In this document: in pieces, positions 1 to 62,296 of the stretch | Layout: each line of letters opens with the position of its first letter | Position numbering within the stretch: the first letter of the stretch is position 1 | Assembly (NCBI RefSeq): GCF_000336915.1 | Contig: NZ_AOMD01000015.1 | Span: 1 to 64,000 of the forward strand | Reading direction: 5' to 3' | Length of the DNA: 64,000 nt | Source of the DNA: Halococcus saccharolyticus DSM 5350 | GTDB lineage: Archaea > Halobacteriota > Halobacteria > Halobacteriales > Halococcaceae | Position numbers and translations under genes: made by a program | Notes under the pieces: model-generated | The model's database searches: none | Seen by the model: the letters and a program-made list of their open reading frames with translations, nothing else | What the model was told of the DNA's origin: nothing

Positions 1-19
1 AGATGTGTATAAGAGACAG
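1..19. other. Nextera transposase mosaic-end adapter (artefact)
   Basis: The first 19 bases, AGATGTGTATAAGAGACAG, are exactly the Tn5 mosaic-end sequence used in Illumina Nextera libraries. It abuts the coding sequence of an ATPase that would otherwise continue. This is untrimmed library sequence and not genome, so the true contig starts at about position 20. Confidence 0.97.
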
Positions 20-5815: not shown

Positions 5816-6277
5816 TTATTCGTGACCAAGCATCTCGTGCAGGTCAGCATGGTCGGTCAGTAGCTCACGCATTCGCTCGACGGTTACCTCATCTCGCGTC
5901 CGTCCGGCGTGGACGATCTCCTCGGCACGCTCAATGATGGTGAGCGTATCCGATTGCGCGAGCAGGATCGGGATGCCACGCTCCTCGGCCTTCCCGAGTA
6001 CCGCAGACGACGGTCGGAACCCGCCAGTCAGACAGAGGCATTTGATTCCCGGCGCTTCGAGCGCAACCGAGTGGATATCCGAGCGGTCACCGCCCGTGAT
6101 GAGCACTGCATCTTTCGTCCGTCTGAAATGCCGGAGGGCCGCGTCCGCCCCCATCGCGCCGACCGACAGCCGTTCGATGTACGTGTCCGTGGGTGCGTCG
6201 GTCGCGATCTCCGCACCGAGCTCCGCCGCGAAATCGGCGATCGAGACGCCGGCGAGCTCTTTCGTCCGTGGATTCAC
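5816..6277 (-). pseudogene. 5'-truncated DRTGG-domain protein (phosphotransacetylase-like)
   Basis: The remaining 153 residues are a DRTGG domain, with [37 protein letters not shown], and [20 protein letters not shown] recognisable. In haloarchaea this domain normally follows an N-terminal P-loop BioD-like ATPase domain in a protein of about 350 residues; that half is missing. The sequence loses family similarity at about 6270, exactly where a TnpB C-terminal fragment starts on the other strand, so a transposition or deletion removed the 5' part. The ATG at 6277 may be fortuitous. Whether the domain is still expressed is unknown. Confidence 0.75.
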
Positions 6278-6485
6278 CGTCGAAGCGAACCGCGACCGCG
6301 AGAGCTTCGCGTGCCAGTCGTGCGGCTACGAGAACCACGCGGACTACAACGCGGCGAAGAACATCGGTCTGAAACTCCTTCGGAGCCAAACCGGAGCCGA
6401 GGGAGGCGCACCCGTAGGCGTGCGCTTGAATAGCGAGATGGTGAACACGAGCGGGCTTACATCCGCACCGACTGTTTCGGTTTGA
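6270..6485 (+). pseudogene. TnpB C-terminal remnant (IS200/IS605 family)
   Basis: The frame ending at 6485 reads [19 protein letters not shown], then [20 protein letters not shown] and the Gly/Val-rich tail [18 protein letters not shown]. This is the second zinc-ribbon half and the conserved [11 protein letters not shown] of TnpB RNA-guided nucleases of IS200/605 elements. Only the last 70 or so residues remain. A 3' hairpin (6506-6525) typical of the element's right end follows. It truncates the adjacent DRTGG gene. Confidence 0.9.
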
Positions 6486-6505
6486 GTGGGAGTCCATGCT
6501 AAATG

Positions 6506-6525
6506 CCACGGCCTTCAGGCCGTGG
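6506..6525. repeat. Right-end hairpin of the TnpB remnant element
   Basis: Perfect inverted repeat CCACGGCCT-TC-AGGCCGTGG (9-bp arms, 2-base loop) 20 bases after the tnpB stop. It resembles the subterminal hairpins recognised at IS200/605 ends and those flanking the complete element at 25.6-27.0 kb, so it marks the 3' boundary of the remnant. Confidence 0.85.
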
Positions 6526-6529
6526 TAGC

Positions 6530-6754
6530 TTACTCAGCTTCCTTCTGCACTAGCCACGTGATATTCTTCGAGTGGCCCCACTGTTCGAGTGTCATCCCGG
6601 TTAGTTCGGTTTGGAGTCGCTGTAGGTGTTGGGCTACCGCCTGCGGCGTTTCGCCAATGTCATCCGCGATTTCATGAGCCTTAAAATAGGTTGGCTCACT
6701 GTCTGCTTGTTGCTCCAAGTATGCCCGTACCACTTGACGTGTAAGATTGGTCAT
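6530..6754 (-). CDS. DUF7123-like small winged-helix protein
   Basis: 74 residues, MTNLTRQVVRAYLEQQADSE then TYFKAHEIADDIGETPQAVA and the C-terminal LEQWGHSKNITWLVQKEAE. It matches the pattern of haloarchaeal DUF7123 proteins (YFKSxxIAxDLG...WGxSxxxTWxV), predicted as small HTH proteins of unknown function. Its stop is at 6530, only 5 bases from the TnpB-element hairpin, so the insertion sits immediately behind it. It is 22 bases downstream of copA on the same strand and could be cotranscribed with it. Confidence 0.75.
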   Translation of the reverse strand: MTNLTRQVVRAYLEQQADSEPTYFKAHEIADDIGETPQAVAQHLQRLQTELTGMTLEQWGHSKNITWLVQKEAE

Positions 6755-6775
6755 AGAGAGAAAGTCCCCACTTTG

Positions 6776-9403
6776 TTAGCGGAGGAATCCGAGCAGCTTG
6801 TAGTCGTGGTCGGGAGTGTACCGACGGAACAGAAGGCTGTTCGACAGCACCGACACGCTCGAAAACGCCATCGCTGCTGCGGCTAGCACCGGCTGGAGCA
6901 ACCCTAAGGAGGCGAGTGGAATCATCGCCGTGTTGTAGCCGAGCGCCCAGAAGAGGTTCTGTTTGATCTTCTGGAGCGTCCCGTCACTGATGCGGATGGC
7001 CTTGACCACGTTGAGGGGGTCGTCGCGCATCAGCGTGACGTCGGCGGCCTCGATGGCCACGTCGGTGCCCGAGCCGATGGCGGTGCCCACGTGGGCGGTT
7101 GCGAGCGCCGGTGCGTCGTTCACACCATCGCCGACCATCATCGCCTTCGTTCCATCCTGCTGGATGTCGTCGAGTGCGTCGGATTTGTCCTCGGGGAGGA
7201 CCTCCGCACGGACGTTTTCGGGGTCGATGCCGACCTCTTCGGCGACCGCTTCAGCCGTGCGCTCGTTGTCACCAGTGATCATGTGGACCGCGAGATCCCG
7301 TTCGTGGAGCGCCGCTACAGCCTCTTTGGCGCTCTCTTTGACCGTGTCGGCATCGGCGACGAGACCGAGGAGGGTATCGCCGCGCGCGACCAACATCGCG
7401 GTCTTGCCCTCGCCTTCGAGCCGTTCGAGTTCGTCTTCGGCAGCCGAAGGATCGATATCGTTGTCACGCATGAGCTTGCGATTGCCGACGAGTACCTCCT
7501 CGCCGTCGACCGTCGCGCGAACGCCGTGACCGGGCACGTTCTCGAAGTCTTCGGGGTCGGCGAGGTCGATGCCACGTTCTTCAGCACCGTCGACGATCGC
7601 TTGTGCGAGCGGGTGCTCGCTTCCAGACTCGGCACTTGCCGCGGCCCTGAGAACCGTCTCTTCGTCGCTTTCTGCCTCGCTCTCGGGCTCAGATCGGTCT
7701 TCGAGCGCCTGTGCGCCGCCGTCGGCTGCTGTTTCAGTACCGCCGTCGGTTGTTGTACGAGTTCCGCCAAGCGGGACGACGTCGGTCAGTTCCATTTCAC
7801 CTTCGGTGAGCGTCCCCGTCTTGTCGAACACGACCGTATCGACGTCCTTCGCGCGTTCGAGGATGTCACCGCCCTTGAACAGGACACCCGTCTGGGCACC
7901 GATCGAGGTACCGACCATCGTCGCCGCTGGCGTAGCGAGCCCGAGCGCGCACGGACACGCAATCAGGACTGCCGACGCGAAGACCACTACCGCGAACTCG
8001 AAGACCGAGACCGTGCCGCCGGCAACTGCTGGACCGCCCGCGACGAGTCCCCAGAGCGGTAGTGCCCCGACGAACCCGGCGAGTGCTTCGGGGAACAGAT
8101 ACCAGACGACGCCCCAGAGCAGCGCGTTCACAATGACGATCGGGACGAAATACGCCGAGATCCGGTCGGCGAGATTCTGGATGTCGGGCTGGCGTGACTG
8201 GGCCTCCTTGACAGTCTGAACGATCTGCTGGATCGCGGTGTCGGACCCAACTTTCGTCGCTTCCACTACCAAGACGCCGTTTTCGTTGATGGTTGAGCCA
8301 ACCACCTCGTCACCCTCTTCTTTCTCGACCGGGACGGATTCGCCGGTGACCATCGATTCGTCGACCGCGCTTTGCCCGTCGACGACAGTGCCATCGGTCG
8401 GGATCTGCTCGCCCGGACGGACCTTCATCCGGTCGCCGACGTCGACTTCGTCGAGGGGGATCTCCTCCTCGTTACCCTCGTCATCGACGACAGTCGCGGT
8501 ATCGGCTTCCATCTCCAGCAGTTGCTGGAGCGCCTCTCCGGCCTGTCCCTTCGAGCGGGCTTCGAGGTAGTTACCGAGCGTGATGAACACGAGGATCAAC
8601 GCGGCGGTATCGAAGTACAGCCCGCCCGCGAGTAGGCCCAACAGGACCACGACCGAATAGAGATAGGCTGTAGTCGAGCCAAGCGCGATCAGCACGTCCA
8701 TGTTCGCCGAGCGGTTTTTCACTAGCGCCTTGTACGAGTTCTTGTAGAACGGCCAGCCGAGGACGGCCTGTACGGGCGTTGCGAGCGCGAACTCTACCCA
8801 GCCGAACTCGATGCCGAAAATCGTCTCGGGGAGTGCCCCGCCGCCCAAGATGAACTTCTCAACGAGAAACGCAAGTAGCGGAAGTGAGAGCGCCGCGCCG
8901 AACAGCGTCAGCCGGAGTTGGTGGCGGATCTCTTCGTTCCGTGCGGCGTCGCGCTGGTCCTGCTCGGAGTTTCCGCTCCCGTCGTCGCGTACGGGTGAGT
9001 AGCCGGCGCTCTCGATTGCCTCGTAGAGCTGTTCACGAGAAGTTTCGGCGGGGTTGTACTCGACGTTCGCCTCGTCGGTTGCGTAGTTGACCTCCGCCGA
9101 GATCACTCCAGGGATGTCTTCGAGTGCCGTCTCGTTGGTCTCAGCGCAGTTCGAACACGTCATGTCGGTGATGCCGATAGAGACCGACGTGCTCATCGCG
9201 CTGTACCCGGCATCGTCGATCGCCGTGTAAATTTCCCCGAGCGTCGTCTCTTCCGAGTCGTACTCGACGGTCCCCTCGTCGGTGGCGAAGTTGATGTTCG
9301 CCTCGCTCACCCCGTCGAGGTCGGTGAGGGCCTGAGTTATGGTCTGTGAGCAGTTTGCACAACTCATGCCCTGGATGTCGAGTTGTGTTTTGCGGTGACT
9401 CAT
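6776..9403 (-). CDS. copA: CopA copper-exporting P1B-1 ATPase
   Basis: 875-residue membrane pump exporting Cu(I) at the cost of ATP. Two N-terminal HMA domains are visible ([10 protein letters not shown] near residue 13 and [10 protein letters not shown] near residue 80). They are followed by eight membrane helices, TGES in the actuator, the metal-site motif [40 protein letters not shown] and [11 protein letters not shown]. An acidic, Thr/Gly-rich insert of about 45 residues after DKTGT is typical halophilic decoration. The ATG at 9403 is preferred to the GTG one codon upstream. It lies downstream of the TRASH-Lrp gene on the same strand with a shared promoter element, and next to copZ. Assignment is secure. 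Confidence 0.97.
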
Positions 9404-9429
9404 CACCAGTAACTACGGGACCCTCATTC

Positions 9430-9508: not shown

Positions 9509-10105
9509 CTATCCTGCTGCTCCCTCTTCCATCCGGTCGAATTGTTCTTCGAAGCGGGCTTCACAGGAGGGACAGCAGAACTGGTAGAGTTCTTCACCGA
9601 TACGCGCGGCGGTTCCCTCACGGGTGACGGTGTTGCCGCACTCGGCACACGTCAGCGCGAACTCCGTTTCACCGAGCGTCGGCGTCCATTCGACGCCCGT
9701 CAGAAGTTGTACGTCGTATTTTTTGATGCTTCGTAGGTCGAGTATCTCCGCAAGCCATGTTGGGACGTCGCCATCAACGACGAGTGCGTAGCAGAGGAGA
9801 TCGTGTTCCGCGGTCGTGAACATGAACTCAATCGCTTCGGCATCCAGGAGAGCTTCACGAACGGATTCGAACCGATCCGGTTCTACTGTGAGCCTCACGA
9901 GGACGGGAACACCCTCATGAAGTTGTGACCGATCGACGTCGATCGTAAAGCGACGGATGACGCCTATTTCCTGAAGTCGCTTGACGCGCTCCGAGACGGC
10001 CGGTGGCGAGAGATCGACTACCTCAGCGATTTCGCTCCATGGTCGACGGGCATCACTCATCAACAGTTCGAGGATTTCGAGGTCCGTTTCGTCGAGATCG
10101 CGCAT
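9509..10105 (-). CDS. Lrp/AsnC-family copper regulator with TRASH domain
   Basis: 198 residues. The AsnC-type HTH is DLDETDLEILELLMSDARRP then LSPPAVSERVKRLQEIGVIR, followed by a RAM-like ligand domain and a C-terminal TRASH metal-binding domain with CAECGNTVTREGTA and FCCPSCEARFEEQF. The closest described relative is Halobacterium VNG1179C, which activates the copper ATPase gene; the same arrangement here (next to copA and copZ) supports that role. The start at ATG 10105 was chosen over GTG 10126 because the shared upstream element is then at the same spacing as for copA. It would act as a cytoplasmic Cu sensor and activator. Confidence 0.92.
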   Translation of the reverse strand: MRDLDETDLEILELLMSDARRPWSEIAEVVDLSPPAVSERVKRLQEIGVIRRFTIDVDRSQLHEGVPVLVRLTVEPDRFESVREALLDAEAIEFMFTTAEHDLLCYALVVDGDVPTWLAEILDLRSIKKYDVQLLTGVEWTPTLGETEFALTCAECGNTVTREGTAARIGEELYQFCCPSCEARFEEQFDRMEEGAAG

Positions 10106-11263: not shown

Positions 11264-12781
11264 ATGATACCTACCCTCTCCCGGCGACAGTTGCTCGCAG
11301 CCACCACTGCGTCATTCGGCATGCTTGCCGGCTGTTCGTCTTCGCTCCCATCGACTGGCGACTCGTCCACTACAATGGCTGCCTCGGGATCGGCTCCAAC
11401 CACCGAACCGTCCAACGTAACGGCAACCGCTCAATCATCGGCCGTCCCGAAAGACGCCGACCAGCAGCGAGCGCTCACCGCCAGGACCGGCCCGATTTCG
11501 CCGGCCGGCGACGGAGATTCGAATCCTACATGGCTCTACAACGGGCGGACGCCCGGACCGGAGCTGCGGGTTGCCGAGAGCGACGTGCTTCGGGTTGATC
11601 TTACGAATCGGCTTCCCGACCCGACGACGATACACTGGCATGGCGTCCCGCTCGCCAATCCGATGGACGGCGTGCCGAACGTTACGCAAGCGCCTGTCGA
11701 ACCCGACGGGTCGTTTACCTACACGTTCGAGGCAGCCCCGGCCGGGACGTATTTCTATCACAGTCACGTCGGTCTCCAACTCGACCGCCATCTCATCGGC
11801 CCGCTCATCGTCGAAGAGGAATCACCGCACGTCGCATTCGACCGCGATATCGTCGTACTGTTCAACGATCATCTGACGAGTGCCCCGCGGCCGGAATCCA
11901 AATGGAGCACAGGGGGTGGAGACGGGATGGGTGGTGGCGGAATGAGTGGTGGCGGAATGAGTGGTGACGGGATGGGCCGAAATCAGATGGGCGGTGGGAT
12001 GAGTGCGGCCTCGCGTCCGGACTACGCGGGACTACTTGCGAACGGCCGTCTCCCTTCGAACCCGCCGGAATTCACCGTCGAGAAGGGCGAGCGACTCCGC
12101 GTTCGGTTCATCAACGCCAGCGGCGCAACGACCTTCGGTGTCGGCGTTGGCGGCCATCCACTGAACATCACCCACGCCGATGGCCGACCGGTCGAACCCG
12201 TGGCGACCGACTCGTTCGCCTTCGGTCCCGGCGAACGGTATGATGCGGTCGTCGAAGCGACCAACCCCGGAGTGTGGGCCATCGAGGCCCAATCAGTCGA
12301 TGGCGACGAGTCGCCGGCGAGCGTGACGCTACGATACGAGGGCACTACTGGCGACCCGCGCGGGCCGTCGTTCGATGGCAGCCAACTCGAGTACGGCGAT
12401 CTGCGCGCGGTCGAATCCACCGAAGGACTACAGGGGTCACCGGACCGGACGTTCGACGTCACCCTCTCGGCGGGTCGCGATCCGGGAACGTGGCTCATCG
12501 ATGGCCAGCGATTTCCCGATGCGGACCCGCTACAGGTCAGCGCCGGCGAGCACGTCCGACTGCGGATGCGCAATCGAAGCCCGGTGGTCCACCCGATGCA
12601 TCTTCATGGACACTTCTTCCGCGTCGGCGACGCGTTCAAAGACACGGTGATGGTGCCGGGCCACATTGGCCGCGTAACGATTGACTTCCTCGCGGACAAT
12701 CCCGGTGAATGGCTATTTCACTGTCACAATATCTATCACCTCGACGGCGGCATGGCACGTATCATCGAATACGCCGACTGA
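11264..12781 (+). CDS. Tat-exported lipoprotein multicopper oxidase (CueO/laccase-like)
   Basis: 505 residues. N-terminus [15 protein letters not shown] with lipobox MLAGC indicates Tat export and lipid anchoring outside the cell. Four copper-ligand segments are intact: [24 protein letters not shown] and [15 protein letters not shown], giving the trinuclear and type 1 sites. A Met/Gly-rich insert at about residues 222-247 (repeated [17 protein letters not shown]) resembles the CueO Met-rich region that takes up Cu(I). Probable cuprous oxidase protecting against extracellular copper. In operon with copB, 26 bases upstream of it. Confidence 0.95.
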
Positions 12782-12807
12782 GCACGAAACAGGACACCAC
12801 ACTACCA

Positions 12808-14883
12808 ATGAGCGAACATTCGACACGCGACAAGGCCGGACGAGAGCACGAAAACGAGACCACCGACACACCGCCGGCTCACCGGAGCGATAGCGGCAGC
12901 GACATCGCCCAGACCGATCATTCGGGCCACGAGCAGATGTTCCGCCGGCGGTTCTGGATATCGCTCGTTCTCTCGATTCCGGTCATCGTCTTCAGCGAGT
13001 TCATTCAAGACGTTTTCAACTACACTGCACCGACGTTTCCCGGCAGCGAGTGGGTGACGCCGGTTCTTGCGGTGGTCGTCTTCGCGTATGGCGGCGTGCC
13101 GTTCCTCTCGATGGCCCGCACGGAGGTCGAAAACCGCGAGCCGGGCATGATGATGCTCATCTCGCTGGCGATCACCGTCGCGTTCGTCTACTCGCTGGCG
13201 AGCCTCGTCCTACCGGGAACGACGCCGTTCTTCTGGGAGTTGGTGACGCTGATCGACATCATGCTGTTGGGTCACTGGATGGAGATGCGTTCGGTCCGGC
13301 AGGCCTCGGGCGCGCTCGACGAGCTCGCAAAACTCATGCCCGACACCGCAGAGCGGGTCACCGACAGCGGTGACACCGAGGAAGTCCCGATTGATGAGTT
13401 GACCGAGGACGACGTCGTGCTCGTCCGTCCGGGTGCGAGCGTCCCCGCCGACGGCGAGGTAGTCGAGGGCGAATCGTCGGTCGACGAGTCGATGATCACC
13501 GGCGAATCCCGTTCGGTCGACAAAGATCCTGGTAGCGAGGTCGTCGCCGGGACGGTCAACCAGGACGGCAGCCTCCGTGTGCGAGTGACCACGACGGGCG
13601 AGGAGACGACGCTAGCGGGTATCATGCGTCTCGTCGATGAAGCTCAGCAGTCGAAATCCAGAACACAGTTGCTCGCCGACCAGGCGGCGGGCTGGCTGTT
13701 CTATGTCGCGTTGGGTGTTGCGGCTCTCACGCTGGTCGGCTGGGTGGTTGCAACCGGGTTCAATATCACTGTCCTCGAACGCGTGGTCACCGTCCTCGTC
13801 ATCGCGTGTCCGCACGCGCTTGGGCTCGCAGTCCCACTCGTGGTCGCCATCAACACCTCGACCGCGGCGGAGAACGGTATGCTCATCCGGGACCGCATCG
13901 CCATGGAGGAAGCCCGGAATCTCGACACGGTGATGTTCGATAAAACTGGGACGCTCACCAAAGGCGAGCAGGGCGTCGTTGGCGTCGAGACGGCCGACGA
14001 GTGGAGCGATGAGAGAGCATTCGGGGTGGCTGCTGCCGTCGAGGGCGACTCCGAACACATGATTGCCCGTGCCATTCGGAATGCGGCCGACGAACGCGAC
14101 GTCGACCGTCCACGTGTCTCGGAGTTCGAGAACCTCCGTGGTCTCGGCGTCCGCGCTACCGTGGATGGGACAACTGTGCATCTCGGCGGGCCGAACCTCC
14201 TCAGAAAATTCGGCATCGAGCGGTCCGAATCCATCACGTCGTTCGCCGAAGAAGCCGGCGCGAACGCGCAGACGGTCATCTACCTCGTCCGCGAGGAAAC
14301 CGACGTAGTCGCCGCGTTCGCACTCGCGGACGTCATCCGTGAGGAGAGCCACCAAACGATCCGCGCACTCCACGACATGGATATCGAGGTGGCAATGATC
14401 ACCGGCGATTCCGAGGACGTTGCGTCCGCGGTCTCCAAAGAGCTGGACATCGACCAGTACTTCGCCGAGGTGCTTCCCGAGGAGAAAGACCAGATGGTCA
14501 CGCAATTGCAAGAGGAGGGAAAGCTGGTCGCGATGGTCGGCGATGGAGTCAACGATGCACCCGCGTTGACGCGGGCCGACGTCGGTATCGCCATCGGGTC
14601 AGGTACCGATGTCGCCATCGAGTCGGGTGACATCATTCTCGTCGAGAACAACCCGCTCGACGTGATGCGCCTCGTTCGACTTTCAAAAGCGAGCTACCGG
14701 AAGATGCAGGAAAACCTCGTGTGGGCGACCGGCTACAACGTCTTCGCACTTCCGCTCGCCGCCGGGGTGCTCGCGCCGATCGGTATCCTGCTTTCGCCCG
14801 CGGTCGGGGCGGTGCTCATGTCGTTGTCTACTATTATCGTCGCCATCAACGCACGCCGACTCCGCGGAGTCGACCTGTCATGA
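12808..14883 (+). CDS. copB: CopB-type (CPH) copper P1B-3 ATPase
   Basis: 691 residues. No HMA domain; instead an acidic, His-containing N-terminus ([15 protein letters not shown]) typical of CopB. Motifs: [26 protein letters not shown] (CPH metal site), [55 protein letters not shown]1B-3 pumps move copper (Cu(II)/Cu(I)) or silver outwards. The ATG at 12808 was chosen as the first ATG giving a CopB-like N-terminus; the longer frame from 12709 overlaps the oxidase gene. It overlaps the following methyltransferase by 4 bases (ATGA), so translation is coupled. Confidence 0.95.
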
Positions 14884-39341: not shown

Positions 39342-40523
39342 TCACCGTGCGTGGAATACAGCGATAATCTGGTAGACATATACAACTGTTCCGATGAGCG
39401 TCAGTAGCTCTCCGGTCAGAATCAGGAGCCTCAGTGGAACGACAAGGCCAACCACTTGAATGAGAAGACCACCAGCAAGGCATCCGATAGAAAGCAAGGC
39501 GGCGTGATTGGACGCCCCCCGAAAAGTCCCGATAGCGGGAGGATAGAATTGGTATGCGACGCCGACGATGGTGAGTCCCAGAAAGCCGAGCACATTGAGT
39601 CGAAAGTGAGCGAGCGCCAACGACGGCGTAAGGTGGCCGAGCGCGAATGACAACCCCAGTATGATCGCTAGTACGCCACTCGCTACGCCGGTGAGCACGC
39701 CGTAAAATCCGACACGTCGGCGCTCCGACCGGACGAACAGCACCCCATATACAAGGGCGAATCCGATCACAGCTACGGCTTCAATAACCGCGCCGAGTGC
39801 GAACCACGTACTACTGCTGCCGAGCGTCGTTGCGAGGAGTAGCGGTCCGAGCGCTCCCGCTGGAAGCACAAGGATGACGAGTCGTGCGGGTGGGGAGGCA
39901 ACCAGAAATCGCGGAAGCAATCGAAATCCGAGAGCGAAGACAAGCATTGTCGCCGTTCCCGCCGCGAGCAGATGGGAGACGCGTGGAAAGTACCCGTCAA
40001 AGAGCATCGGGAGAGTAGTGTGGATCGCGACCGCTTCGTATGAGCCGATCGCCAAGTAGCCCAGTGCGACCGGAACGAACCCGTTTGCAACCCGATCTAC
40101 TGAGCGTCGGTCGGCGTTCGCTTCCCCCGTTCCAGTCGCTTCTCCAGTGAGATTTCCACGGATCGTCCAGAGGAGGCCCACGAGAAACACGCCGACACCG
40201 AGTCCCCAGAGGATCGCACCAATGGGCTCAAGCCACTCCAAACCCGGTAGAACTGACGAAACGGCAAGACTACATGTTCCACCGACCGTGAGGGGAAACT
40301 GTACCGCGGGCGCACGAGTGATTTCGAGTTCACGTTCGAAATACGACGGGACGAGCGAGTAGGCCTTCCCAAAGATCATGTGGAGGACGAACCCGAACAT
40401 GCCGAGCAGCACCTCCGTTCGGCGCGGGAAACCGACCAGCATACCGATCTGCCACACTAACAGGAACAGAGCACTAATGAGGACATATCGACGCGCCCAC
40501 CGTGAAACGATGGCTGCGCTCAT
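39342..40523 (-). CDS. NnrS / heme-copper oxidase subunit I-like membrane protein
   Basis: 393 residues, about twelve helices. Conserved His positions in helix context: LHMIFGKAYSLVPSYFEREL, VSHLLAAGTATMLVFALGF, AHFRLNVLGFLGLTIVGVAY, similar in placement to heme ligands in CcoN-like/NnrS proteins. These proteins are linked to NO and heme-copper metabolism. The last gene of a three-gene run (41590 to 39342) behind a candidate NarO-type palindrome. No copper-site tyrosine-histidine pair is recognised, so catalysis is doubtful. Confidence 0.6.
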   Translation of the reverse strand: MSAAIVSRWARRYVLISALFLLVWQIGMLVGFPRRTEVLLGMFGFVLHMIFGKAYSLVPSYFERELEITRAPAVQFPLTVGGTCSLAVSSVLPGLEWLEPIGAILWGLGVGVFLVGLLWTIRGNLTGEATGTGEANADRRSVDRVANGFVPVALGYLAIGSYEAVAIHTTLPMLFDGYFPRVSHLLAAGTATMLVFALGFRLLPRFLVASPPARLVILVLPAGALGPLLLATTLGSSSTWFALGAVIEAVAVIGFALVYGVLFVRSERRRVGFYGVLTGVASGVLAIILGLSFALGHLTPSLALAHFRLNVLGFLGLTIVGVAYQFYPPAIGTFRGASNHAALLSIGCLAGGLLIQVVGLVVPLRLLILTGELLTLIGTVVYVYQIIAVFHAR

Positions 40524-40617
40524 CCCGCTTCACAACAGATAGACGCTTGCCGCTGCGATCGGGATGTATTTGTCACAATCATCGATTGACTCGTTCGATA
40601 GTTGAGACTCGACCCAT

Positions 40618-41001
40618 CTATCCGTCGTCTGCTTGTGGATCGAACTCATCGCGCCGAATCCCTGCTCTAACAGGATCGTGTTCGGCGTCCGACGGCGGTG
40701 GGGCCGTCACCAGTAATGCTTCCAACTCCGTGTCATCGGCCCTCACTCCTCGATCGGTCCCTGCTTTCACGACGACAACGTCGCCTGGCTCAACGATGTG
40801 CTCCTCTGACCCTTCGCGGATCACACCAGTTCCTGACTGGACAGCGATCGTGACGTCGCTGTCGGGGGCATGGACCGGAATGAACTGTCCTGGCCCGAAG
40901 TAGCCGAGGGCGACCTTCATCCGCTCGCTCTTTGAGACGGTCTGAGCTGCGAACTGTTCGTCGTTGTACGCGCGTTCTGTATCGAAATCAGTGCTAACCA
41001 T
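40618..41001 (-). CDS. Cupin-domain protein
   Basis: 127 residues. Small beta-barrel cupin: ALGYFGPGQFIPVHAPDSDV with metal-ligand pattern G(x)5HxH-like reduced to PVHAPDSD, then the second motif EHIVEPGDVVVVKAGTDRGV. The second histidine of motif 1 and that of motif 2 are not clear, so metal binding may be partial. Part of the minus-strand operon, 10 bases downstream of the unknown gene at 41012-41590. Function unknown, possibly anaerobic respiration-linked. Confidence 0.8.
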   Translation of the reverse strand: MVSTDFDTERAYNDEQFAAQTVSKSERMKVALGYFGPGQFIPVHAPDSDVTIAVQSGTGVIREGSEEHIVEPGDVVVVKAGTDRGVRADDTELEALLVTAPPPSDAEHDPVRAGIRRDEFDPQADDG

Positions 41002-41011
41002 CTATCTTATA

Positions 41012-41590
41012 TCAAAAGGGCGTGGTTGGGCCAGATCGCTGCCCAATGTCTGTCGGTGTGACTCCCTGTCCTCCCTCTTCTGATGGGGTAGTACAAGCGT
41101 CGTCTCCTGATTCGAGGTACTCATCTTCGAGATCGGCGAGTTCGTCGTTGATCTCACCGCTTCGATGATGCATCGGATGAACGCGAACACTGACGAGATC
41201 GTATTCATGACGTTTCGTCAACCCGTTCCACGCACGGAACGAACCGACCGTAAGCGTGTGGCTCTGCGGACAGAACGGTGTCGTTGGGGTGAACTCGGCA
41301 TGAAGCGTCCGTTGGTCGTCGACGTCCTCCGCATACCGATAGCCAGCACTCGGATGACGGTGGTCGAGATTGAGTTGAGCGAGGTTATAGCCGAAGGTCA
41401 TGTCGTAGACTCCCCGCTCTTCGAACAACTGTTTCGTCAGGCTGTGGAACGCCGCGTGATCTTCTTGTGACAGTAGGTCTTGGCCGTCGAGAAACGTTCC
41501 TGGCTCCGGAAGATGGTCGGGAACGAACTCGTCGTACGTGTCGAAGATAGCGTCGTCTGATCCCGAGAACGGTGACGGGAAATCGGACAT
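41012..41590 (-). CDS. Conserved haloarchaeal protein of unknown function
   Basis: 192 residues starting MSDFPSPFSGSDDAIFDTYD. Best-preserved part: NLAQLNLDHRHPSAGYRYAE, TPTTPFCPQSHTLTVGSFRA, HEYDLVSVRVHPMHHRSGEI. Cys/His-rich middle (CPQSH, HPMHH) suggests metal binding; some resemblance in the CPQSHTL segment to DUF59/MIP18-like iron-sulfur helpers but not enough to call. First gene of an operon with the cupin and the NnrS-like gene, with a CGAA-N4-TTCG palindrome 36 bases before its ATG. Does not resemble a characterised enzyme. Confidence 0.75.
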   Translation of the reverse strand: MSDFPSPFSGSDDAIFDTYDEFVPDHLPEPGTFLDGQDLLSQEDHAAFHSLTKQLFEERGVYDMTFGYNLAQLNLDHRHPSAGYRYAEDVDDQRTLHAEFTPTTPFCPQSHTLTVGSFRAWNGLTKRHEYDLVSVRVHPMHHRSGEINDELADLEDEYLESGDDACTTPSEEGGQGVTPTDIGQRSGPTTPF

Positions 41591-41626: not shown

Positions 41627-41642
41627 CCCGAACCTGTTCGGG
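41627..41642. promoter_or_regulatory. Candidate NarO/DmsR-type operator
   Basis: CCCGAACCTGTTCGGG: a palindrome with central CGAA-CCTG-TTCG. CGAA-N4-TTCG is, as I recall, the motif described for the NarO/DmsR anaerobic regulators of Haloferax volcanii. It lies 36 bases before the start of the minus-strand operon ending at 39342. The same motif occurs at 49987-49998. Confidence 0.7.
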
Positions 41643-41781: not shown

Positions 41782-41793
41782 CAAATCCATTCG
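41782..41793. promoter_or_regulatory. Near-match to the same operator, before the truncated hemoglobin
   Basis: CAAATCCATTCG differs from CGAA-N4-TTCG at one position. It is followed by ATTAATTG (TATA-like, 41803-41810) and then the hemoglobin start about 20-25 bases on, the spacing of a leaderless transcript activated from just upstream. Weaker than the two perfect sites. Confidence 0.4.
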
Positions 41794-41831: not shown

Positions 41832-42197
41832 ATGTCAGCAACCAGTTCGATGTACGAAGACATCGGTGGTAACGAGGCTATCGAAGCAGTAGTTTCGGAT
41901 TTCTACAAGCGCGTCCTCGACGATCCCCTTCTGGAACCATACTTCGAGGAGACCGATATGGACGCTCTCTTCGCTCACCAGGTCCAGTTCGTCAGTGCTG
42001 TGGCCGGTGGTCCCGTCGACTACGAAGGCGACGATATGCAGAATGCTCACGAGGGAATGGCCATTACCGAGGAGGCGTTCTCACACGTTGCCGGGCATCT
42101 CGCGGACGCTCTCCGCGCGAACGGTGTCTCAGAACCTCATGTCGAAACCATCATTGAGGAAGTCGCGACGCTCGAAGACGACGTCGTCGGCCAGTAG
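41832..42197 (+). CDS. Group I/II truncated hemoglobin
   Basis: 121 residues. Typical truncated globin: MYEDIGGNEAIEAVVSDFYK, VLDDPLLEPYFEETDMDALF, AHQVQFVSAVAGGPVDYEG, then the proximal-His helix NAHEGMAITEEAFSHVAGHL. Heme-binding protein usually tied to NO detoxification or O2 handling. Start chosen for the ATG behind the TATA-like element; ATGs at 41811 and 41829 also fit. Its neighbours are NO/nitrite-type genes. Glycine and Phe heme pocket residues (YFEE, DYEG) are kept; the B10 Tyr equivalent appears in DFYKRVL. Confidence 0.9.
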   Translation: MSATSSMYEDIGGNEAIEAVVSDFYKRVLDDPLLEPYFEETDMDALFAHQVQFVSAVAGGPVDYEGDDMQNAHEGMAITEEAFSHVAGHLADALRANGVSEPHVETIIEEVATLEDDVVGQ

Positions 42198-42240: not shown

Positions 42241-43000
42241 GGCACTGCTAGATTGAGGTTGAACTGAGCGGAGTTCTTCGAGGCGGTTGGAACCATGCTC
42301 GAAGAACTCCAGGTAGAGGTCACGAACTGCTCGGATGTGCCGTTTTTGGACACGGATCGGACGAGCACGCCAGCCTGGTTGATCAGGCTGGCGTGCGCTG
42401 CTCACGCCGCCGCAGCGTCGCTGGCGGAGTGCTGCGACCTCTGCGAGTGGTTCGGCGTCAGCCGAACCCGAGCCGCCATCCACCACTGGTACCAGTCATA
42501 CGCTGAACACTACGACCAGGACTTCACCGCCGAACCTGATCGTGTCGCCGTCGACGAGAAACAGATCCAACTCGAAGAAGAGCGGAAGGTCTGGCTCTAC
42601 GCCGCTATCGATGTCGATTCGAAAGTCGTGCTCCACGCACGACTTTCTCAAAATCGCGGCACCGAGCCCGCAACGACATTCTTACGCGAACTCAAAGAGG
42701 AACACCGCGTCTCCGACGCGGAGTTCCTCGTCGACGGCATGGGCTACCTGACGGCACTGGCTAAAACCGATCTTCTCGGCGACCTCAACTACTCCGACCG
42801 GAACATCGTCGAGAAACTGTTCCAGACCTACACCATGCGTGTCGGTCGATTCCACGAGACGTGGAACGGCAGTCAGCCAAGCGCCGAGCGCTGGCTGACT
42901 GCCTACACCGCCTACTACAATCGTCTCAGGAGCCACCAAGCGCTGGAGAATCAGCCGCCGATCGAAGCGCTCGAACGGGAGGGCTCAATCTAGCAGTGCC
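42241..43000 (+). mobile_element. Complete IS6-family insertion sequence
   Basis: 760 bases with perfect 17-bp terminal inverted repeats, GGCACTGCTAGATTGAG at 42241-42257 and its complement at 42984-43000. An 8-bp target duplication GACCGCAT flanks both ends (42233-42240 and 43001-43008). One transposase gene. Intact ends and duplications point to a recent insertion, between the truncated hemoglobin gene and the multicopper oxidase. Confidence 0.95.
42295..42993 (+). CDS. IS6-family transposase
   Basis: 232 residues. N-terminal HTH/zinc-like part (LAECCDLCEWFGVSRTRAAI), DDE catalytic residues in DRVAVDEKQIQLEEERKVWL (D), SDAEFLVDGMGYLTALAKTD (D), and NRLRSHQALENQPPIEALER (E, in the C-terminal helix). 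Stops 7 bases before the right terminal repeat's end. Looks intact and potentially active. Confidence 0.95.
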   Translation: MLEELQVEVTNCSDVPFLDTDRTSTPAWLIRLACAAHAAAASLAECCDLCEWFGVSRTRAAIHHWYQSYAEHYDQDFTAEPDRVAVDEKQIQLEEERKVWLYAAIDVDSKVVLHARLSQNRGTEPATTFLRELKEEHRVSDAEFLVDGMGYLTALAKTDLLGDLNYSDRNIVEKLFQTYTMRVGRFHETWNGSQPSAERWLTAYTAYYNRLRSHQALENQPPIEALEREGSI

Positions 43001-43131: not shown

Positions 43132-44292
43132 ATGACCGACCGTATCGGCGCACCCGGCACGGGTATCTCGCGGCGTGAATTCCTGGCGGCAAGCGGTGGT
43201 GTCGGCACGGCAGTGCTGGCGGGCTGTACGGCAATCGACCAGAAATCGTCGACGAACCCGACCCTTGGGGACCCACCGGCAAACGTGAGTGGCGACGGCG
43301 GTAAACTCCCGTACACGTCCCCACCCGAGGTCGTGCAGGTCGACGAACAGGGTGGGAAGGTGACGCTCAGCACCCAGCAGTGCAGACACGCGGTCCACCC
43401 GAAGGAGACGATGGGCGGACCGATTGAGCTCCCCCAGGTTTGGGCGTTCAAGGCCGACGACGGTCCCGCGAGCGTTCCAGGGCCGATCCTCCGCACCACC
43501 GAGGGCAACGACATGGAGGTGACGCTGGACAACTCGAACGGGATGCGCCCGCACACGGTTCACTTCCACGGGTCTCAGACCACGTGGAAAAACGACGGCG
43601 TGCCGACCACGACCGGCATCGAAGTCGGCCCCGGTGAGAAACACACCTACACCATCCCGGCGAACGTCCCTGGGACCCACTTCTATCACTGCCACTATCA
43701 GACCCATCGCCACATCGACATGGGGATGTACGGGATTCTTCGGATCGATCCGAAGGGGTACGAGCCCGCCGACAAGGAGTACTTCATGACGGTGAAAGAG
43801 TGGGATTCGCGACTCAACCGGATGATGGCCGGCGAGGACGCCCAGTACAGCCCGCGGCAACGCAACCCCGACGTGTTCACCATCAACGGAAAGAGCGCGC
43901 CGCGGTCCTTCCACCCTGAGGATGGCTCGCCGATCATCGTCGACAAGGGCGACTCGGTTCGAGTCCACCTCGTCAACGGCGGGTACATGGCCCATCCGCT
44001 CCACACCCACAACCACCGCTTCGAGGTGGTCGAATCCGACGGTGGCCAGATCCCTGAAGCCGCACGATACACTCAAGATGTCGCCAACATCGCCCCTGCG
44101 GAACGCCGCACCATCGAGTTCACCGCCGATGCTGATCCCGGTATCTACCTCCTGCATTGCCACAAAGTCCACCACGTGATGAACAGGGACAGCTATCCTG
44201 GCGGGATGCTCGGGGCGATCGTCTATCGCGAGGCAATGAATTCGGACATCTTCGCCCAGCTCATGGAGTACGCCGGCTACGACGGAGAGTGA
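43132..44292 (+). CDS. Two-domain multicopper oxidase, Tat lipoprotein (NirK-like neighbourhood)
   Basis: 386 residues. Twin-arginine motif SRREFLAASGG and lipobox VLAGC for export and anchoring. Two cupredoxin domains. Domain 1: HTVHFHGSQTTWKND (HFH), then THFYHCHYQTHRHIDMGMYG. Domain 2: HPLHTHNHRFEVVE, then YLLHCHKVHHVMNRDSYPGG. Both HCH segments are followed by His and a distant Met, so a type 1 copper could sit in each domain, with trinuclear histidines between. That is the type A two-domain oxidase pattern and not the classic NirK T1-Cys block. Substrate unknown: nitrite, metal or phenol. Halocyanin gene follows 5 bases on. Confidence 0.88.
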   Translation: MTDRIGAPGTGISRREFLAASGGVGTAVLAGCTAIDQKSSTNPTLGDPPANVSGDGGKLPYTSPPEVVQVDEQGGKVTLSTQQCRHAVHPKETMGGPIELPQVWAFKADDGPASVPGPILRTTEGNDMEVTLDNSNGMRPHTVHFHGSQTTWKNDGVPTTTGIEVGPGEKHTYTIPANVPGTHFYHCHYQTHRHIDMGMYGILRIDPKGYEPADKEYFMTVKEWDSRLNRMMAGEDAQYSPRQRNPDVFTINGKSAPRSFHPEDGSPIIVDKGDSVRVHLVNGGYMAHPLHTHNHRFEVVESDGGQIPEAARYTQDVANIAPAERRTIEFTADADPGIYLLHCHKVHHVMNRDSYPGGMLGAIVYREAMNSDIFAQLMEYAGYDGE

Positions 44293-49270: not shown

Positions 49271-49948
49271 TCACGATCGGGTGAGAACCGAGTCCATGAG
49301 CTTCGACTGAGCGGCCGCGAGGTGTTCAGCAAACGTCGAGACCGTGATATCAAGCGCCCCCGCGACTGTCTCGGCGTTGGCCTCCCGTGGGTGAGCGAAG
49401 TAGCCCATATCGTGTGCGACGGTGAGCACCTCGCGCTGACGGTCGGTGAACATGCTCCGATCGATGAACATGAGGTCACTTTCTGCCTCGTCTGCATCCG
49501 ACCGCAGCAGCCGGCGAACCGATACAGTTTCGAACCGATCCTTGAGATCCCTAATCACAGTCTGAAGCGTCTCGATATCAATTGCAAAGAACGTGACGGT
49601 GACCTGGTCACCGTTGACGGTGACGTCCCGAACCGGACAGCCGAGCGCTTCGACTCGGTCGCAGACACAGCCCCGTCTCTCGCGATCGAATCGGTAGACG
49701 GTTTCCGAGTCAGTATCGAATACTCGAGTCATCGATCTGATTTCGTCGAGTGCGGTGTCGTCGGAGTCGTCCCGCGTTCTCCCGTTCACCTGTTCGACGG
49801 TGAACTCTTCAGTGATGGCTTCGTCCTCTGTCGGTATCGTACTCCGCGTGATGCTGTTAATTGTCGCAGCCGTCTCGGTCCCCTTTGTTGGGAGTCGGCA
49901 TGAGGCAGGCCCTCCGACCTCAAGTTCGGCGAAGATACCGTCCCCCAT
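49271..49948 (-). CDS. narO: NarO-like (DmsR-type) oxygen-responsive regulator with HTH_10
   Basis: 225 residues from ATG 49948 (MGDGIFAELEV), a leaderless start behind CAGTAAACTC and a palindrome. The middle has RRGCVCDRVEALGCPVRDVT, a CxC...C cluster plus other cysteines, which could hold a redox-sensitive metal site as in Haloferax NarO/DmsR. The C-terminal HTH_10 is SMFTDRQREVLTVAHDMGYF, EANAETVAGALDITVSTFAE, HLAAAQSKLMDSV. Divergent from the nar operon with a CGAA-N4-TTCG site in between, as described for narO in H. volcanii. Gene symbol inferred from context. Confidence 0.75.
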   Translation of the reverse strand: MGDGIFAELEVGGPASCRLPTKGTETAATINSITRSTIPTEDEAITEEFTVEQVNGRTRDDSDDTALDEIRSMTRVFDTDSETVYRFDRERRGCVCDRVEALGCPVRDVTVNGDQVTVTFFAIDIETLQTVIRDLKDRFETVSVRRLLRSDADEAESDLMFIDRSMFTDRQREVLTVAHDMGYFAHPREANAETVAGALDITVSTFAEHLAAAQSKLMDSVLTRS

Positions 49949-49986
49949 ACACCGGTGTCGCTTAGCCACTCACTTGAGTTTACTGA

Positions 49987-49998
49987 CGAACATGTTCG
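49987..49998. promoter_or_regulatory. Candidate NarO-type operator between narO-like gene and nar operon
   Basis: CGAACATGTTCG, a perfect 12-bp palindrome of the CGAA-N4-TTCG type. It lies 39 bases before the narO-like ATG and about 300 bases before the first nar gene, with a TATA-like stretch between it and narO. Same motif at 41629-41640. Confidence 0.7.
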
Positions 49999-61045: not shown

Positions 61046-62296
61046 ATGAGTGAACACGACCCTCAAATTCAGGAAGACGTAGAAGAGACGCTTCGATCGG
61101 TTGAGGACTCCCGGTCCGGAATGAACGTATTCGAGGCCGGGCTGGTCGAAGATATCACCATCGAGGGGGACTCGGTCACCGTCGAGGCGAATTTAGCCCA
61201 GTTCGATCCCCGGACCAGCACTGAAGTCATGGATACGATGTTGCACGCGGTTCGGGACGTGGCCGGTGTCGAGAGTGCCCACGTCGAGCCCGCGGAAGTC
61301 GATACCGGCGACCGGGTATCCATCGCCGAGATCGATACCGTGATCGCCGTCGCATCAACGAAGGGCGGGGTTGGAAAATCCACTGTCGCCACCCAGCTGG
61401 CCTGCACTTTCGCGGCCGATCGCGATGTGGGCTTGTTCGACGCGGATATCTTCGGTCCGAACGTCCCCTCACTCCTCGATGTCGATGGTCCGATACTGTC
61501 CGACGATGACGATAATCCGATTCCGGCCACCGTCGGAGGTATGGAGGTCATAAGCGTGGGCCTGATGACTGAAGGTGGTCCTTTGGCCTGGCGGGGAGCG
61601 ATGGCCCACGACGCGCTTTCTGACCTGTTCGCCGACACTGCATGGGACGATCCCGATACACTCGTCATCGACTTGCCGCCCGGCACCAGCGACGTTCTGT
61701 TGACGACGCTGCAAGAGGTCCCTATCGATGGTGTCGTCTTCGTCACGACGCCGTTTCACACCAGCGTCGAGGATACCCGTCGGAGTCGGCGTCTGTTCGA
61801 GGAGAACGGTGTCCCGGTTCTCGGGTATGTGCTGAATATGGACCACTTCGTTTGCGACGATTGCGAGAAGAACCACGACATGTTCCCCGGGGGGACGCTG
61901 ACTGAAGAACTCGATATGCCGGCGTTGACTCGTCTTCCGTTCTCGCCAGACTTGCAGGCGCAACCGAAACCGGGCACCGCCCCCGAAGCATTCGAGAGAT
62001 TGGCCGAGTCGGTTGGTGAGCAGTTGGACGATGCTGACCGCCTCGAACTTCCCGAAGATCCAGTTGATATCCGTGGTCTCGAAGCCCAACAACGAGTGGA
62101 GCGGGTGCGCGGAACGTTCGAGTCGCTTGATTCTGGTGAATCACTGTATCTCGTGAGCGACCGCGATCCAACCCCAGTCGGCGAATTTTTAGTCACCCTC
62201 ACGGGCACAGATGGGGATCCGACTGATGTACTCCCAGAGTTCACGACCGAGCGCCGTGGGCTCGAAAAGTGGGTACTCAAGGCAGTTTCTCCGTGA
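61046..62296 (+). CDS. Mrp/ApbC-family ATPase fused to DUF2249
   Basis: 416 residues. N-terminal DUF59-like domain (EETLRSVEDSRSGMNVFEAG, VTVEANLAQFDPRTST, DVAGVESAHVEPAEVD); ATPase domain with deviant Walker A (STKGGVGKSTVATQLA), LFDADIFGPNVPSLL, LVIDLPPGTSDVLLTT and the metal-binding CxxC FVCDDCEKNHDMFPGG; C-terminal DUF2249-like domain (LDSGESLYLVSDRDPTPVGE, TTERRGLEKWVLKAVSP). Mrp/Nbp35 proteins carry Fe-S clusters to target enzymes. End of the nar operon, 3 bases after the HEAT gene, so it probably matures NarH/NarG clusters. Confidence 0.9.
   Translation: MSEHDPQIQEDVEETLRSVEDSRSGMNVFEAGLVEDITIEGDSVTVEANLAQFDPRTSTEVMDTMLHAVRDVAGVESAHVEPAEVDTGDRVSIAEIDTVIAVASTKGGVGKSTVATQLACTFAADRDVGLFDADIFGPNVPSLLDVDGPILSDDDDNPIPATVGGMEVISVGLMTEGGPLAWRGAMAHDALSDLFADTAWDDPDTLVIDLPPGTSDVLLTTLQEVPIDGVVFVTTPFHTSVEDTRRSRRLFEENGVPVLGYVLNMDHFVCDDCEKNHDMFPGGTLTEELDMPALTRLPFSPDLQAQPKPGTAPEAFERLAESVGEQLDDADRLELPEDPVDIRGLEAQQRVERVRGTFESLDSGESLYLVSDRDPTPVGEFLVTLTGTDGDPTDVLPEFTTERRGLEKWVLKAVSP

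Follow-up and report, generated by a model that had tools for sequence, protein, structure and literature searches.

Promoters of the nar, nirK, nor and nos genes of Haloferax mediterranei are reported to carry a CGAAYATDKTYG motif, and its mutagenesis lowered the activity of the nos and nor promoters (PMC10062603). The nirK-nor island of this organism, its motif, its DUF2249 genes and its cyanoglobin gene have already been published; the island and the cyanoglobin gene are induced under denitrification, and the P-loop NTPase of the nar operon is reported with DUF2249 (PMC11218638). HFX_2180, a 440-aa heme-copper oxidase I-type protein encoded near nirK, was found in the denitrification membrane fraction of H. 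mediterranei (PMC7754194). One protein of the H. mediterranei nir-nor cluster is labelled nitrite reductase though it is just 23% similar to NirK. A second family relevant here is DUF59/MIP18 (PF01883), which includes SufT, YitW, PaaD, CIAO2A/B and the N-domain of ApbC/Mrp and has the published motif DPE-X26-31-T-X2/3-C (PMC9045647). SufT is required for Fe-S maturation and depends on its single Cys for partner binding, and Mycobacterium tuberculosis depleted of it becomes sensitive to NO (PMC9045647); in Staphylococcus aureus SufT matters under high Fe-S demand (PMC4982691).

In this study, we analysed the first 64,000 nucleotides of contig NZ_AOMD01000015.1 of Halococcus saccharolyticus DSM 5350 (the window). 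A first-pass annotation had proposed a three-gene operon at 39342-41590, and three minus-strand open reading frames were found at exactly these coordinates; the operon is thereby confirmed. It consists of P1 (41012-41590, ATG at 41590, 192 aa), the cupin P2 (40618-41001, 127 aa) and the membrane protein P3 (39342-40523, 393 aa), with gaps of 11 bp between P1 and the cupin and 95 bp between the cupin and P3. The cupin matches Pfam Cupin_2 (E 1e-8). In a congener (G099) the order P1, gap, P3 is preserved and the proteins are 93% (P1) and 89% (P3) identical to those of the window. P1 is 63-64% identical to its counterparts in two Halococcus loci (L031, L032) and 63-65% identical to those of the congeners G045, G061 and G077. 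The tie among P1, cupin and P3 is genetic only, and any contact between the three proteins is putative.

A denitrification/NarO-type promoter motif, CGAACCTGTTCG, precedes the operon, which the first-pass annotation had already placed under a motif. It occupies 41629-41640, starting 50 nt before the P1 ATG, and is conserved upstream of P1 orthologs. We searched for CGAA-N4-TTCG within 200 bp upstream of the P1 start in 124 loci, a few of which repeat one genome. The exact motif was present in 58/124 loci (47%), compared with 3.7% for random windows; when one mismatch was allowed, the count rose to 117/124 loci (94%) vs 21% for random windows, with most copies at positions -47 to -50. In the window itself exact copies are mildly enriched (6 vs 2.6 expected; 2/100 shuffles as high), and the phylogenetic footprint upstream of P1 is much stronger than this count. 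A further motif, CGAACATGTTCG, is located at 49987-49998 between the nar operon and a DmsR/NarO-type regulator (49271-49969, minus strand; DmsR_N + HTH_10), which is a candidate reader of the motif. Divergently from P1 and on the plus strand lies a truncated hemoglobin gene (41832-42197; Bac_globin E 1.4e-24) with its own one-mismatch motif at 41782, 50 nt before its ATG. This gene was considered as a conserved partner of P1 and dismissed, as it was found in 0/80 P1 loci.

The first-pass annotation had placed P1 in no named family and had pointed to its Cys/His segments, and both observations hold: CPQSH starts at C107, HPMHH surrounds H141, and none of 18 P1 orthologs searched gave a Pfam match, PF01883 (DUF59) included. 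Furthermore, the NCBIfam SufT model (TIGR02945) stayed below its cut-off (E 0.19, 12 bits vs 143), and neither a comparison of the P1 sequence with PDB sequences nor a BFVD search returned a match. P1 does not represent a new fold, since Foldseek, VIA and profile comparison all point to DUF59/MIP18. With the AlphaFold model (core pLDDT ~90, both ends disordered), the top 15 Foldseek matches were all DUF59/MIP18 proteins (6tbl_C E 3.6e-4), and in the VIA structure comparison CIAO2B reached Z 8.8 vs 5.1 for the best unrelated chain. The full-length match is moderate, with a TM of ~0.35 over the whole model including its disordered termini. A P1 profile built from 105 sequences and compared with 44 profiles ranked DUF59 (T/S-x2-C members) first, with a score of 39.9 (P 4.6e-6) vs 25.6 for the best unrelated profile, and placed TPFC107 on T-x2-C with C107 at the reactive Cys. 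In a relaxed alignment D63-M-T65 falls loosely on DPE, with the invariant D63 at its Asp. P1 thus carries the T-x2/3-C half of the published signature (T104-P-F-C107, followed by Pro), whereas the DPE half is replaced by D-x-T65, whose D63 lies 38 residues before T104 instead of 26-31. C107 is invariant in the ortholog alignment; its context in the window is FTPTTPFCPQ, and TPTTxFCPQ occurs in 100/104 distinct orthologs. In contrast to DUF59/MIP18 proteins, P1 has an extra N-terminal region, five invariant His (H45, H49, H79, H128 and H141, not H142) and a variable disordered linker that ends in [ASTV]-P-F in ~95/104 distinct orthologs. This tail resembles the eukaryotic CIA targeting peptide ([LIM]-[DES]-[FW]) but has no acidic residue, and the comparison is offered only as an idea. 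Given the matching fold and a signature of which half is present, P1 is filed, on its predicted structure, as a divergent DUF59/MIP18-type protein that folds like known Fe-S assembly factors (CIAO2B, SufT, YitW, ApbC N-domain) and not as SufT.

We tentatively favor, without calling it probable, a reading in which P1, as a divergent DUF59/MIP18 member specific to haloarchaea, is an accessory protein that helps to build, target or repair Fe-S (or related metal) cofactors during NO production; the likeness to the family in an accessory role in metal-cluster maturation is presumed. DUF59 proteins also have non-Fe-S roles, as in PaaD, and this counts against the Fe-S reading, as do the missing Pfam DUF59 match, the E of 0.19 for NCBIfam SufT, the altered DPE of P1 with its longer spacing to T104 and the moderate full-length structural match; nor did a suf gene appear among the neighbours recorded. 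A very doubtful alternative is that P1 acts in regulation or as a scaffold, makes its protein-protein contacts through the DUF59 fold and the -PF tail, and does not handle metal. The conserved -PF behind a variable disordered linker would suit such a role, and M. tuberculosis SufT was found to bind neither Fe nor Fe-S, its Cys serving partner interaction (PMC9045647). However, C107 together with the five invariant His exceeds what a pure scaffold needs.

The distribution of P1 bears on the Fe-S reading through its link to denitrification. P1 is present in 174/293 Halobacteriales genomes and in 0 of 197 genomes sampled from the phylum outside the order, so that in this sample it is confined to Halobacteriales, which again sets it apart from DUF59/MIP18, as does its tracking of nirK and of the denitrification motif. 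Canonical copper nitrite reductase NirK, called by TIGR02376, was found in 145/293 genomes. Both proteins occur in 131 genomes, P1 only in 43, NirK only in 14 and neither in 105, which corresponds to an odds ratio of 23 (p 1.8e-28) with kinship among the 293 genomes ignored. P1 also co-occurs with qNor (p 1.3e-19, kinship likewise ignored). Counting contigs on which both genes could be located, at least 39 genomes have P1 and nirK no more than 10 kb apart, and in 14 genomes the distance is ~115-230 bp. The tie to denitrification and anaerobiosis proposed in the first-pass annotation is therefore upheld by NirK and qNor co-occurrence, nirK linkage and the conserved motif; conservation near nir/nor genes across haloarchaea is strongly positive, and a random, unconserved neighbourhood is excluded by the neighbourhood and co-occurrence data. 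Both NirK and qNor are absent from 15/174 P1 genomes, and these, like the 14 NirK genomes without P1, stand against the Fe-S reading. In H. saccharolyticus itself the true nirK (contig C15, 84441-85370) adjoins qNor (C15, 80941-83181); both lie outside the window, ~43 kb from the operon in the case of nirK, in contrast to the published nirK-nor island. A gene at window positions 43132-44292 was tried as NirK and rejected: it reaches 60.9 bits with TIGR02376, below the cut-off of 296, and encodes a different two-domain multicopper oxidase, which co-occurs with P1 (p 4e-21).

Genes within 10 kb of P1 were surveyed in 80 P1 loci, with open reading frames ranked by conservation. The 460-aa membrane protein MEM1 was found in 59/80 loci (49/80 within 3 kb), DUF2249 proteins in 38-47/80 depending on type, a second cupin in 38/80, a bacterio-opsin-activator-type regulator in 36/80, the cupin of the operon itself in 29/80 and P3 in 23/80. 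Across genomes, P1 and P3 lie within 10 kb of each other in at least 36 and within 200 bp in 23. The first-pass annotation had suggested that the operon may encode a novel NO or metal redox system; these numbers lend no support to a single system of all three proteins, as P1 usually occurs without a nearby cupin and P3. In Haloferax denitrificans (L033), MEM1, halocyanin, NirK, P1, a CGCGG RiPP, a regulator, a cupin, P3 and DUF2249 are found in a single island in which NirK and P1 are adjacent. The operon shares with the published haloarchaeal nirK-nor island the CGAAYATDKTYG motif and the kinds of neighbour (DUF2249, halocyanin, bacterio-opsin activators and truncated hemoglobin), whereas cupins, P1 and P3 were not found named in the text searched (PMC10062603, PMC11218638). 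A CGCGG-family RiPP was seen within 10 kb of P1 in 34/80 loci and the pseudo-radical-SAM/SPASM protein TIGR04347, related to NirJ/AhbC, in 28/80, with examples at 9585-9935 (L062) and 5893-7110 (L079). These two may form a putative, uncharacterised peptide- or heme-modification system of haloarchaeal denitrification islands.

The neighbourhoods also allow for a somewhat unlikely reading in which P1 would be devoted to maturing a single metalloenzyme of its locus (NirK, NorB or the heme-copper oxidase I-like P3/MEM1), in the manner of PaaD, and would not be a general Fe-S factor. The short distances of P1 to nirK in 14 genomes and to P3 in 23, and of MEM1 to P1 in 49/80 loci, would fit it. The genome contains three Pfam-recognised DUF59 proteins, one of which belongs to the PaaD equivalog class (NF041868) while the one in the window is Mrp-type; a DUF59 protein of the PaaD class is thus already present. 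However, no partner is constantly adjacent to P1, given P3 in 23/80 and MEM1 in 59/80 loci, and no signal peptide is evident in the P1 sequence, whereas NirK and NosZ are exported copper enzymes that mature outside the cytoplasm.

P3 had been called NnrS-like in the first-pass annotation, and this assignment was abandoned. NnrS (PF05940) is a heme membrane protein of bacterial denitrifiers, and P3 resembles it as a multi-helix membrane protein of a denitrification regulon. PF05940, however, matched neither P3 nor its 38 homologs, nor any protein of the whole genome, and it gave no match in any control genome either. On this Pfam evidence P3 is not a recognisable NnrS. The P3 model (pLDDT 94.8) has a minimal version of the 12-helix fold of heme-copper oxidase subunit I over its whole length (Z 35.8 to cbb3 CcoN, 35.1 to NorB). 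In sequence, the window protein has no significant Pfam match, Pfam COX1 was matched by 2/38 homologs (best E 1.6e-4), and the qNor and CoxI profiles gave weak local matches only. MEM1, which in H. saccharolyticus is encoded on a different contig (C14), is homologous to P3 (hhalign P 6.5e-6), shares its islands and is probably the counterpart of HFX_2180 in H. mediterranei. Ligands of P3 were assigned from helix order and secondary structure together with sequence. H184 and H306 are invariant and H48 is present in 31/38 homologs; no other candidate ligand position is mostly His, so that the six canonical His (helices II, VI, VII x2, X x2) are not all present. Invariant H306, the helix His that is kept, aligns with AH of the NorB helix VAHAHAAMFG, and R308 takes the place of the second His of HxH, in what is a weak alignment. 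Residues 213-233, the helix expected to hold the paired CuB/FeB ligands, contain no His. P3 is smaller than the superfamily members it resembles and lacks most CuB/FeB and low-spin heme ligands. We predict that P3 most likely binds heme; because there is no paired-ligand His and R308 stands at the second HxH position, a canonical binuclear centre is unlikely, and with this ligand set canonical NO reduction by P3 appears unlikely as well.

Closest to the first-pass annotation is the idea of an operon for NO detoxification or sensing, with P3 at its centre as a minimal heme-copper oxidase I-like hemoprotein able to bind or reduce NO and with P1 and the cupin in partner roles. The fold of P3, the weakly aligned H306, the motif-driven promoter and the related MEM1 argue for it. 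We nevertheless consider it unlikely, given the ligands missing from P3 and the many P1 genomes without P3 (P3 in 116/293 genomes, P1 in 174/293). The family consensus of the cupin, IPVHAPxSD, has one motif-1 His (HAPxSD for HxH) and no motif-2 His, in place of the motif 1 HxH...E and motif 2 His of functional metal cupins, and because of this P2 is probably not a standard metal cupin.

Several other features of the contig were recorded. An IS6-family element at 42241-43000 (transposase 42295-42993, NF033587) with the terminal repeat GGCACTGCTAGATTG and an 8-bp target duplication GACCGCAT lies between the truncated hemoglobin and multicopper oxidase genes and is missing from the corresponding place in congener G099. 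A gene at 61046-62296, after the nar genes, encodes an Fe-S carrier of the Mrp/ApbC type that begins with a DUF59 domain at its N-terminus. Upstream, at 6776-9406 and 11264-14883, genes for copper-type P-type ATPases and for a multicopper oxidase of TAT type hint that this contig also has a region for copper handling. The contig starts with AGATGTGTATAAGAGACAG (window 1-19), which we take to be a Nextera transposon end; as residual sequencing adapter, these first bases are an assembly artefact.

Returning to P1 as an Fe-S accessory factor, NO attacks Fe-S clusters, and a DUF59 factor under denitrification control fits a role in maturation or repair. Starting from the operon, the conserved motif, the co-occurrence and linkage with nirK, the kept residues and the modelled folds, we infer the following course of events, including the regulator that reads the motif. 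Transcription of P1, here along with the metal-poor cupin and P3, would be driven by a promoter of the denitrification type, with CGAA-N4-TTCG ~50 nt ahead of the start codon. In low oxygen with nitrate or nitrite, a regulator of the NarO/DmsR or bacterio-opsin-activator type would become active at this motif, and NO released by NirK would damage Fe-S clusters. P1 might then help to re-mature cluster proteins through a C107/T104/D63 pocket, with NarH, the Rieske protein and radical-SAM proteins of the same islands as candidate clients, and its C-terminal -PF tail would perhaps dock a partner. P3 and its homolog MEM1 could bind membrane heme and handle or sense NO or electrons. Going further, it is tempting to speculate that haloarchaea evolved a denitrification-specific NO-tolerance module for detoxification and repair, distinct from NorB, NnrS, flavohemoglobin and YtfE. 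In it a rebuilt DUF59 protein would restore metal to targets that NO has damaged or that are of the P3/MEM1 type, and P3 and MEM1, as heme-copper oxidase I relatives with fewer ligands, would act as single-heme NO-handling membrane proteins; we regard this module as quite improbable.

The folds assigned here, the footprint of the motif and the co-occurrence of P1 all appear to be new. No mention of P1, P3 or cupins was found in the text searched on the nirK-nor island, and the published RNA-seq covers this island of H. mediterranei without naming the P1 ortholog in that text (PMC11218638). Our literature search returned no paper tying DUF59 to haloarchaeal denitrification, and in RefSeq plasmid records P1 and P3 are labelled 'hypothetical protein'. 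The P1 family is found in more than half of the sampled Halobacteriales genomes and closely tracks nirK, yet it has remained unannotated. P3 and MEM1 enlarge the accessory set of denitrification with ligand-poor relatives of heme-copper oxidase subunit I. If P1 is a DUF59 factor dedicated to denitrification, it would tie the upkeep of Fe-S (or metal) cofactors to archaeal NO production.
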